64,000 nt of DNA, taken from the NCBI RefSeq assembly GCF_900141775.1, contig NZ_FSRI01000001.1, positions 1,582,251 through 1,646,250 of the forward strand, written 5' to 3'. Positions 32,048-36,467 of the stretch are shown here, piece by piece. The notes under the pieces were generated by a model. That model was not told the origin of the DNA, did no database searches, and saw nothing but the letters and a program-made list of their open reading frames with translations. Made by a program: the position numbers and the translations under genes. This stretch comes from Salinivibrio sp. ES.052 (GTDB lineage: Bacteria; Pseudomonadota; Gammaproteobacteria; Enterobacterales; Vibrionaceae). Position 1 is the first letter of the stretch. Every line of letters begins with the position of its first letter.

Positions 32048-32506
32048 TCAATATTCCACAGCAGTACATCTGACAGAACTGAGCCAGTGCCGTTGTGATT
32101 GCCCGTGGTAATGACCCCACAGCGCTTGCTCTCCCCGCCAGACAATATCACCTTGTTCATTACACAGCTCTTGGGGTGTACCCGCGTGGTCAGTCACGAT
32201 GTAATGCAGTTCGCTGCCTTGATTATGGTGGGTCACTTGCGCCATCGGGCGGAAGCTACCAGGCTCGTAGAGGTATTCGGTTTGTTGTAGGACTTGCCCA
32301 TCAGCCGTGGCCTGTTGTTGCTGCACAATATGCGCGCCGTCCCACAGGTAGTGGGTTTGTGTGTCGCTGTGCGCACATTCTTTGGCGATGCGTCGCCCAA
32401 ACGGGTCGTAGCGGTAGCGATACCGCGTGCCGTTGGGCAGTTCAATGTGGGTTAAGGGTGTCTAGTACACGCCCTCACGGTCATGGCGGCGTTTTTGGTG
32501 CTGCAC
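32048..32506 (-). pseudogene. truncated Rhs core fragment (third orphan cassette, toxin lost)
   Basis: The minus strand starts at the same GTGCAG breakpoint as the two intact orphan cassettes (32501-32506), meets an in-frame stop, and has lost the segment between the DRAG and THIELPNG stretches. It then matches the Rhs core well (IELPNGTRYRYRYDPFGRR ... WRGEQALWGHYHGQSQRHW). It ends abruptly in LSSVRCTAVEY-stop before the DPLGL motif. No toxin domain remains. It is a remnant of a displaced Rhs C-terminal cassette. Confidence 0.85.
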
Positions 32507-32545
32507 GCAAGCATGTTGCATGAATCAGAAAAGTGGACACCTCCA
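32507..32545. repeat. conserved cassette-boundary element, copy A
   Basis: About 39 bp shared with 34435-34479 and 36284-36322, always placed between the GTGCAG start of an Rhs core fragment and an IS256 transposase tail. The right arm CCTCCAA is intact; the left arm (TTGCATG) is degraded compared with TTGGAGG in the other copies. Confidence 0.7.
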
Positions 32546-32647
32546 ATGCAAAACTGGAACGTGACGCTGCTGCAGCTAATCAGCAACGTCGATAGAGGGT
32601 TATGTGAGTCTGTGATTACTCGGTGACACAGAACTATGAACACCCTC
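32546..32647 (+). mobile_element. IS256-family transposase tail and right end, copy A
   Basis: Codons from 32546 read MQNWNVTLLQLISNVD and run to a stop at 32624-32626, a decayed version of the intact tail at 34585. The IS end GACACAGAACTATGAACACC lies within 32622-32647 and is inverted relative to the left end at 30446. The two ends enclose 2.2 kb carrying the DKNYY gene and the Rhs fragment. Confidence 0.75.
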
Positions 32648-32711
32648 GTTTTTCTGTAACGTTATGCCTAGGAAAAGATCATATCTGGGCACTCCTGATG
32701 TTCTCGTAGCC

Positions 32712-33359
32712 TCACTGCACTAGCTGCGTTACCATATCTGGCTTTCCAAAACCAACAAAACCACTTTCCTTATCATCAAAAGCTCCGATCACCTTAAAAA
32801 GTAAACCACCACTCTGAACAACATTATCTAGAATATTGCGATCAATATAGTCACTCGCGTCCCAACCAATACAAAGAGTATAATCAATATCAAAACTATC
32901 GGGCACAGCCACTATGTACGAGCATGGCTCCTCAGCTATAGCTTTAACAATAGAATCTATAGATAACTCTGAGCAACAAGTAGCAGCAAAGAATTTTAAT
33001 TTTCCGTCACTTTCCTTCATATGCTCGATAGATTTAGTGGTATGGGTAACTTCTATCCCTCTAGCTTTAAGGCGTTTAAACAACTTTTTATGACGGATAA
33101 TACGAGTATCACTCTGCCAAGCAGAGTCGCCCACAAAATACCACAGCTTTAAATTAGGCATTTTCGCAAGGATCAAACTAAAAATTATTTTCAACACAGT
33201 GAGACGGGCCTCAAAATGGCTTCTAGAAGGTAGAAGCCAACTACAGGCTCCGACCTTCATACTTGCCGGAAGTTTATCTTCACTAATGTGATACGTATCA
33301 TTTTCCTTCGATACGTCCGTCGTACTTGTATGTTTAAGATTAGTAGTCAAAGTGATCAC
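32712..33359 (-). CDS. putative immunity protein of orphan Rhs cassette 1
   Basis: A 215-residue protein with no family I recognise. It is predicted soluble and mixed alpha/beta, with several cysteines in the middle (residues around 127-150). The GTG at 33359 overlaps the toxin gene end by 20 bp; TTG 33350 is better placed after AGTAGG, so the exact start is uncertain. Tight overlap with a displaced toxin domain is the hallmark of an immunity gene. Its AT-rich composition contrasts with the GC-rich Rhs core upstream. Confidence 0.6.
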   Translation of the reverse strand: MITLTTNLKHTSTTDVSKENDTYHISEDKLPASMKVGACSWLLPSRSHFEARLTVLKIIFSLILAKMPNLKLWYFVGDSAWQSDTRIIRHKKLFKRLKARGIEVTHTTKSIEHMKESDGKLKFFAATCCSELSIDSIVKAIAEEPCSYIVAVPDSFDIDYTLCIGWDASDYIDRNILDNVVQSGGLLFKVIGAFDDKESGFVGFGKPDMVTQLVQ

Positions 33360-35128: not shown

Positions 35129-35140
35129 GACAAGTCCGCT

Positions 35141-36283
35141 TTACTTATTACATTCTTTCCTGGGTTTTCTTCCATTAATATCAATCTTAGCTTTATTATA
35201 CTCATCATTAAAAGCTACTCCTCGGGCATCTACTCTTTCTTTATCAAAAGAATTAACTTTATTACCGCGATTTGTAATTGATATATCTTTTCCTCTGACA
35301 CCAGTTTTAGTGCCATATTCTTCAATGTACGCCTGTTCATAACCTCTCGCTTGAGCATAGTTTAAATCACTCTCTAACACGACTAGCTGAGCATCTCCAG
35401 CTAAACGGCCAGAAGATAAGTGCTGTAACTCTCGTTTAGTAGGGTTATTTGATAACCCTATATAGTACGGTTTACTAGCACCTTCATCATACAAACCATA
35501 GAACGAGAATCCCCCCTGATTTAATGGGGTCAACCCCAGCGGATCCACCCACTCCAGTGGGTTGGCAACATAGGCCTGCGGCCTTAACCCGCCCGCAAAC
35601 CCTATCGGGTCGGGGCTAAGATACTGGCCACTGTCTGCATCGTAATAACGGTTTACGTTATAGTAAAGGCCCGATTCTGGGTCTTCGAGTTGTCCTTGGT
35701 AGCGAAGGTCACACGCTATACTGTCGTTGGCCGCTTCTTCGCGTCGTTGCCAGTGGCGTTGTGATTGCCCGTGGTAATGGCCCCATAGCGCTTGCTCGCC
35801 CCGCCAGACAATATCACCTTGTTCATTACACAGCTCTTGCGGTGTGCCCGCGTGGTCAGTCACGATGTAATGCAGCTCGCTGCCTTGATTATGGTGGGTC
35901 ACTTGCGCCATCGGGCGGAAGCTGCCGGACTCGTAGAGGTATTCGGTTTGCTGTAGGACTTGCCCATCAGCCGTGGCCTGTTGTTGCTGCACAATGTGCG
36001 CGCCGTCCCACAGGTAGTGAGTCTGTGTTTGGCTGTGTGCACATTCTTTGGCGATACGTCGCCCAAACGGGTCGTAGCGGTAGCGATACCGCGTGCCGTT
36101 GGGCAGTTCAATGTGGGTTAAGCGGTCATCCGCGTTCCAGCTAAACTGGGTTACCTGTGGCCGGTAACCTGCTTTGTTCTCGGTCTTTTCAATCACCCGG
36201 CCGCAAGCATCATAGCGATAGCGAAAACGGCCGGTTTCTAATACACGCCCTGCGCGGTCATGGCGGCGTATTTGGTACTGCAC
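35141..36283 (-). CDS. orphan Rhs C-terminal cassette 2: core end plus GIY-YIG nuclease toxin
   Basis: A 380-residue frame from GTG 36283: about 250 residues of Rhs core ending WVDPLGL, then a 129-residue C-terminal domain. That domain has the GIY-YIG order: FYGLY (toxin residues 10-14), PYYIG (21-25), an Arg and His in RELQH (33-37), GR (41-42), Glu in GYEQAYIEE and Asn in ITNRGN. It would be a DNA-cleaving Rhs toxin. The core shows a few substitutions versus the other copies (QYQIRRHDRAG, SQTQTHY). There is no ribosome site, so it is likely a silent reservoir. Confidence 0.85.
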   Translation of the reverse strand: MQYQIRRHDRAGRVLETGRFRYRYDACGRVIEKTENKAGYRPQVTQFSWNADDRLTHIELPNGTRYRYRYDPFGRRIAKECAHSQTQTHYLWDGAHIVQQQQATADGQVLQQTEYLYESGSFRPMAQVTHHNQGSELHYIVTDHAGTPQELCNEQGDIVWRGEQALWGHYHGQSQRHWQRREEAANDSIACDLRYQGQLEDPESGLYYNVNRYYDADSGQYLSPDPIGFAGGLRPQAYVANPLEWVDPLGLTPLNQGGFSFYGLYDEGASKPYYIGLSNNPTKRELQHLSSGRLAGDAQLVVLESDLNYAQARGYEQAYIEEYGTKTGVRGKDISITNRGNKVNSFDKERVDARGVAFNDEYNKAKIDINGRKPRKECNK

Positions 36284-36322
36284 GCAAGTGTATTGGAGGC
36301 ATCATAAAAGTGGATATCTCCA
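36284..36322. repeat. conserved cassette-boundary element, copy C
   Basis: Same 39-45-bp element as copies A and B; TTGGAGG (36293-36299) and TCTCCAG (36317-36323) keep the 17-base spacing with two changes in the right arm. Confidence 0.72.
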
Positions 36323-36432
36323 GTGCAGAACTAGAACGTGACGCCGCCTCAGCTAATCGGCGACGTCGAGGGGCGTAGCGAGGGTTATGTGAGTCAGTGA
36401 TTACTCGGTGACACAGAACTATGATCACCCTC
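36323..36432 (+). mobile_element. IS256-family transposase tail and right end, copy C
   Basis: The tail reads [21 protein letters not shown] and ends at 36400. The conserved Trp codon is a TAG stop, so it is dead. The right end lies at 36407-36432 (GGTGACACAGAACTATGATC then ACCCTC). Confidence 0.72.
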
Positions 36433-36467
36433 AAAAAACACAGAAAACCGATTCAATAATAACTAGC

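Follow-up and report, generated by a model that had tools for sequence, protein, structure and literature searches.

IS256 right-end remnants at the boundaries of three orphan Rhs cassettes in a Salinivibrio genome

The window, as we call the whole 64,000-nucleotide stretch analysed here, lies on contig C6 of the 3.57 Mb genome of Salinivibrio sp. ES.052 and contains a T6SS-type Rhs locus, in which an hcp-like gene (49905-50423), two DUF4123 proteins, a full-length Rhs protein, its Imm45 immunity gene and a series of orphan cassettes are all carried on the minus strand (Table 1). An hcp-2 gene matches S. proteolyticus at 87% at the DNA level. The rhs cores of the locus are 96-98% identical, far above the identity among the scars that separate them, as expected if recombination or selection keeps the cores alike while the scars drift. 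The leftmost 'cassette', orphan 3, has lost about 110 bp from within its core and has no tip. By eye, we take the tip of orphan 1 to be GIY-YIG-like; it also resembles by eye the tip of a full-length Rhs in another locus of the family (L111, 10784-15604), both beginning LTPLNQGGFS, and such tips seem from their sequences to be shared across genera.

Table 1. Features of the orphan Rhs cassettes and their boundaries, in window coordinates
Feature	Position	Strand	Basis
Full-length T6SS-type Rhs protein, 1586 aa, own tip	36785..41545	-	RHS, RHS_repeat, DUF6531, Rhs_assc_core
Imm45 immunity gene of full-length Rhs	36468..36782	-	PF15572, E 2.4e-29
Scar b3, decayed IS256 right end (transposase tail and IRR)	36281..36432	+	67-69% to intact IS256; clade with b1 and b2a
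Orphan 1, truncated rhs core and tip	35141..36283	-	Core 723/754 identical to main; tip without Pfam/NCBIfam match
Presumed immunity gene of orphan 1, 134 aa	34724..35128	-	Position only; no family match
b2b, second and young IS256 tail, GTGCAG start to IRR	34585..34694	+	97-98% to intact Salinivibrio IS256
Scar b2a, older IS256 right end	34432..34584	+	Left part with b1/b3; right part nearer other Salinivibrio IS256 type
Orphan 2, truncated rhs core and Tox-HNH-EHHH tip	33340..34434	-	PF15657, E 5.1e-10; core 741/754 identical to main
Presumed immunity gene of orphan 2, 215 aa	32712..33359	-	Position only; no family match
Scar b1, IS256 right end with 8-bp deletion	32504..32647	+	Alignment to intact IS256
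Orphan 3, broken rhs core, tip missing	32083..32511	-	Matches 219-592 and 703-758 of 760-bp core

An earlier note on this DNA had described the same insertion sequence (IS) scar at all three orphan boundaries, and alignment confirms it: three homologous boundaries, at approximately the positions of b1, of b2a with b2b (34432-34694) and of b3, share one rhs breakpoint, and each stops precisely at the right end of an IS. Against two intact Salinivibrio IS256 copies they match with E-values of 2e-9 to 1e-52 in a small local database and so are not due to chance. With two intact IS256-family elements, of S. proteolyticus and S. kushneri, every boundary gives an unbroken alignment of about 150-160 bp, which begins at CTGTATGCAGG, runs past the transposase stop and finishes at the right inverted repeat (IRR). 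An old scar is thus a remnant of ~150 bp, comprising the last ~40 transposase codons and the IRR. The old scars are 67-69% identical to modern elements (b2a 68%) and carry stops or an 8-bp deletion, the coding part of b2a being open except for one stop. The conserved 39-45-bp element that the note had set apart from the transposase does not exist as a separate entity, as these bases are the codons for LLYAGMLKASEKWTHPVQ (about 362-379 of 402), aligning unbroken to the IS256 transposase just upstream of NWNLTLSQL. Compared with plasmids, the b1 tail peptide matched 25 records, and the named features among the 20 matches listed were IS256 transposases or one hypothetical protein.

The tails align to annotated IS256 family transposases over the last ~40 codons only, and each of the four right ends in the window has a recognisable IRR, while the left inverted repeat (IRL) is absent. 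Transposition of IS256 elements duplicates 8-9 bp of target, and an 8-bp duplication flanks 11 of 19 intact relatives. The scars share transposase tail and IRR with a family whose members in related genomes show such duplications, but they are one-ended, right-end remnants only, and searches of this genome with profile PF00872 (at 0.001) and for the transposase (at 1e-30) found no intact IS256. We considered and rejected a role as promoter or terminator: between 32000 and 37200, neither promoter-like sites (8 vs 8.7 in shuffles) nor terminator sites (7 vs 5.2) were in excess, and no ribosome-binding site was seen by eye before the orphan frames. The scar now probably does nothing beyond offering homology.

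At the middle boundary there are two tails, the old b2a being followed directly by the young b2b (110 bp), which begins at a GTGCAG inside the transposase, unlike the old tails; one IS tail matches Salinivibrio DNA at 98%. Where b2a and b2b meet, the end of the old IRR is joined directly to an internal position of the younger tail. Where the earlier note saw the same transposase breakpoint each time, it is common to the three old tails and not to the young 'best copy'. The GTGCAG of rhs lies on the minus strand and the one opening b2b on the plus strand; being oppositely oriented, the two are not a single shared junction. The GTGCAG junction pattern occurs in two of 329 family genomes, this one and G302. 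In G302 (L108, 8147-9560, and also L025) the last ~112 bp of an intact IS256 are perfectly repeated immediately after the element, the repeat being joined at GGTGCAG, one base off from the start of the young tail in the window. One copy in G089 (L059) has about 44 bp of its right end repeated directly after the IRR with a different start point, so that right-end repeats directly after an IRR are present in the window, in G302 and in this G089 copy. Nested insertion was rejected for the G302 double tail, as it lacks an 8-bp duplication and nothing of the IS is visible by eye past the IRL.

In a tree of 25 IS256 tails, the old scars b1, b2a and b3 group together as one clade, with a support of 0.984 for the whole tail and 0.995 for the left part alone, and share codon changes, reading QLISNV or QLIGDV where others are QLSIHF-like. 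As one clade with common changes argues for one event, the join of IS tail to rhs most likely happened once, judging from these sequences. At the joining base, where rhs has CTGCAC, most IS tails have CTGTAT or a close variant (CTGTAC in L033), making a short microhomology at the join plausible. The same rhs core has no match in the other seven genomes of the genus, and no empty site or intact IS corresponding to the three sites was found. Across the 329 family genomes, with two candidates scored per genome, no scar match outside this genome extended more than a few bases into rhs. The nearest rhs core outside, in Vibrio rotiferianus (L022/L023), was discarded as a counterpart since it has no scar match, and a candidate sister junction (L008, in G005) proved to be a decayed IS256 copy away from rhs.

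The right parts of the scars suggest, in their base-by-base comparison, a history other than that of the left join. Left of a break, up to column 87, b2a agrees with b1 and b3 at 20 of 22 informative sites; from column 105 it does so at only three of 17 and mostly follows L055, a second Salinivibrio tail type. The maxchi value of b2a was reached in none of 100,000 permutations, in a test that dropped sites with gaps or a third base and for which L055 had beforehand been chosen as the best right-hand match. Between b1 and b3, agreement is 72/91 positions (79%) on the left and 51/53 (96%) on the right (Fisher p 0.006, for one of three splits tried). A tree of the right part keeps b1 and b3 together (0.989) and moves b2a to L055/L056/L043 with weak support (0.50-0.55), on a comparison of about 50 bp of which half is IRR and may be constrained. 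Short as the sequence is, the mosaic supports an exchange inside the IS tail, of which we can only infer the direction. The DNA past each IRR also differs, with a presumed immunity stop at 64 bp (b1), 29 bp (b2b) and 35 bp (b3, Imm45). The part-way switch of b2a and the different flank that begins exactly where each IRR ends are more than plain tandem copying can explain; they call for either recombination within the tail or some action at the IRR. The proposal that cassettes were multiplied as units with their scar accordingly holds for the left join, with its single clade, and fails as an account by copying alone. The two sides of one boundary, this suggests, differ in history.

Arrangements of this sort are uncommon elsewhere. 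In a scripted survey of 27 Rhs loci and the window, in which IS256 was sought within 250 bp of each orphan core, it was present at four of 33 cores (two in the window, L111 and L127), a total that includes short, uncertain fragments and misses the broken core at b1. No IS256 was seen at 29 of the 31 scripted boundaries outside the window, the second L111 boundary included; an IS256 end at an orphan boundary therefore recurs, at two of 31. L111 is an array of the same Rhs type, with cores about 73% identical at the protein level, in which a decayed IS256 right end separates the first immunity gene from an orphan core; its rhs and IS breakpoints differ from those of the window. In L127, a 54-bp right end (a weak match, 42/54 bases, E 1e-4) adjoins an orphan core at a breakpoint of its own, and an immunity-like stop lies 26 bp away. 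These differing breakpoints speak against the suggestion that an IS256 end was fused time and again at one rhs position. With the arrangement recurring but the fixed junction found nowhere else, a defined mobilisation unit is not shown. Of the counter-case that the earlier note itself named, one ancestral scar simply copied with no independent occurrence, the single ancestral scar stands and the lack of independent occurrence does not. Orphan core starts vary among the 31 scripted cores elsewhere, except in L112, where two cores both start at residue 1237 with no IS256; a common core start, then, does not need a scar. In L134 (8117-8225) the right end of another IS256 type, recognised by eye, lies about 15 bp from the stop of a small open frame; this tail, within a Rhs array, adjoins a transposase-like gene and not a core junction.

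Of the 329 family genomes, 65 match RHS and 55 match the transposase at 1e-30. Thirteen genomes besides our own match both, and in these six of 37 IS256 places lie within 5 kb of a RHS match against 0.26 expected, the places having been compiled by hand from the best two to five candidates scored per genome, with our own genome and transposases below 68% identity left out. Closely similar copies in G231, G254 and G302 mean that the 37 places are not independent; one of the six near places, in G052, consists of 23 bp of IRR (5/36 without it), and the L106 copy, at 5.2 kb, falls just beyond the limit. Intact copies lie 65 bp behind a presumed Rhs immunity gene in L107 (IRR side) and 35 bp behind one in L109 (IRL side; the same copy as in L039), both without target duplication, and 17 bp behind one in L111 (IRR side), with a perfect 8-bp duplication. 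Counting open frames of at least 80 codons rather than annotated genes, the nearest frame has its 3' end toward the IRR in 25 of 30 copies and toward the IRL in 19 of 27, compared with 29/94 random intergenic points in the same loci; two copies in which no IRR was recognised were excluded, and the IRL end was guessed in 10 of the 30. For frames within 100 bp the 3' end faces the IRR in 14/15 and the IRL in 13/15. The random control, drawn from L106-L125 only, gave 11/32 as its second count. We claim no novelty for this bias, which is already known and fits a published survey, the available part of which reports convergent gene-IS-gene placement as over-represented for IS256 among other families (PMC9208149). 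A link between IS256 and terminators as target sites was found nowhere in the literature searched, and the accessible part of PMC3942029 does not mention terminators. In G302, two IS256 copies about 1 Mb apart (L106 and L108) carry reciprocally swapped 8-bp flanks and lie 5.2 and 4.0 kb from RHS matches; recombination between IS copies therefore does occur in a relative.

With a confidence slightly better than even, we favour the reading that IS256 copies behind immunity genes became both homology and scar in ordinary C-terminal displacement. Elements of this group, which in relatives are seen just behind the 3' ends of open frames, would settle behind genes, presumed Rhs immunity genes included. 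Once, in an ancestor, an IS tail would have been joined to a truncated rhs core, perhaps via the short microhomology, and scar and core start would then have been carried along with displaced cassettes as new tips entered by homologous recombination between rhs cores. A crossover in the IS tail may have swapped the IRR-proximal parts, in whichever direction, placing the same left join behind three different immunity genes. Core-core recombination with circles has been proposed, alongside a C-terminal displacement model, in the part of Jackson et al. 2009 (PMC2935791) available to us, and a circle of that kind would take immunity gene, scar and core start with it as one piece, consistent with the fixed left join. 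Against this reading stands the b2a|b2b join, which homologous recombination does not explain. The observation is real and mostly as first described, and known processes explain all of it but the tandem right ends, which favour some IRR-linked process.

That process may have been transposase supplied in trans by another IS256 and acting on the lone IRR of a scar, by adjacent deletion or one-ended joining, so that different immunity genes came to lie beyond it. All right boundaries coincide exactly with the IRR and are followed by unlike DNA, the b2a IRR is fused directly to GTGCAG inside the young tail, G302 has a similar join at GGTGCAG, and the G089 copy has its 44-bp repeat after the IRR. 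We nevertheless regard it as unlikely for the window: the left/right mosaic is left unexplained, an original IS insertion would give an exact IRR edge too, a simple tandem duplication could account for G302, and this genome yielded no intact IS256. A more specific form, in which a lone IS256 right end behind an immunity gene is a joining point and transposase in trans joins its IRR to incoming DNA, seems improbable; if true, IS256 would help to build toxin/immunity arrays in this bacterial family.

The same left join and single scar clade would also follow from tandem duplication of whole cassettes, scar included, with later divergence, an account that the differing tips, immunity genes and DNA past each IRR largely refute and the separate histories of the scar parts weaken further, making it very unlikely. 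Still less credible is an unsampled, functional IS256 subtype that truly encodes QLISNV, in which case the shared changes would not be decay and the joins might be several: b2a is open but for its one stop, yet none of the 22 other aligned tails reads so, including two (L046, L048) broken in other ways. Three independent fusions of IS256 to the same rhs base can draw on the right ends at orphan boundaries of other arrays, but the breakpoints there differ and the scars of the window have changes in common, and we consider them extremely unlikely.

The H-repeat (H-rpt) of E. coli Rhs loci, which we take to be of the ISAs1 family, is a different IS type, whereas the window has IS256 right-end remnants beside a truncated core. 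The two are alike in that IS-like sequence is associated with displaced tips, as the available part of PMC3032704 describes. As in the displacement arrays of the portion of PMC2935791 at hand, the window has a full-length rhs followed downstream by core and tip fragments of the same clade with other genes between; the core fragments there are variable in length, whereas all three here start at one base and are marked by an IS scar. Immunity-gene arrays of the Vibrio cholerae T6SS likewise have displaced effectors and retained old immunity genes, for which homology-facilitated illegitimate recombination has been proposed, but in the part of that source available (PMC5361080) a transposon only disrupts one region, whereas in the window the IS tail is the cassette boundary. 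IS elements also disrupt orphan cdiA-CT genes, according to the accessible part of Poole et al. 2011. In this literature, partially covered, we found no account of orphan Rhs cassettes bounded at a fixed point by an IS tail.

The shuffling of orphan toxin/immunity cassettes has so far mostly been inferred from core homology. A decaying scar common to several cassettes marks each junction and makes displacement models testable by sequence, and the scars tie breakpoints in Rhs arrays to a group of IS elements found preferentially behind genes. The scar is in this sense a record of array building rather than a new kind of mobile unit.

Two further features of Rhs loci were observed. A gene beginning MKTALDHLPERKQQEL, presumably nucleotidyltransferase-like, lies near four of them (L107, L109, L111 and L127). 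In the window itself, three tandem proteins of 307-311 residues with ankyrin-like matches (weak for two) are encoded at 43436-46247, beside the two DUF4123 genes.
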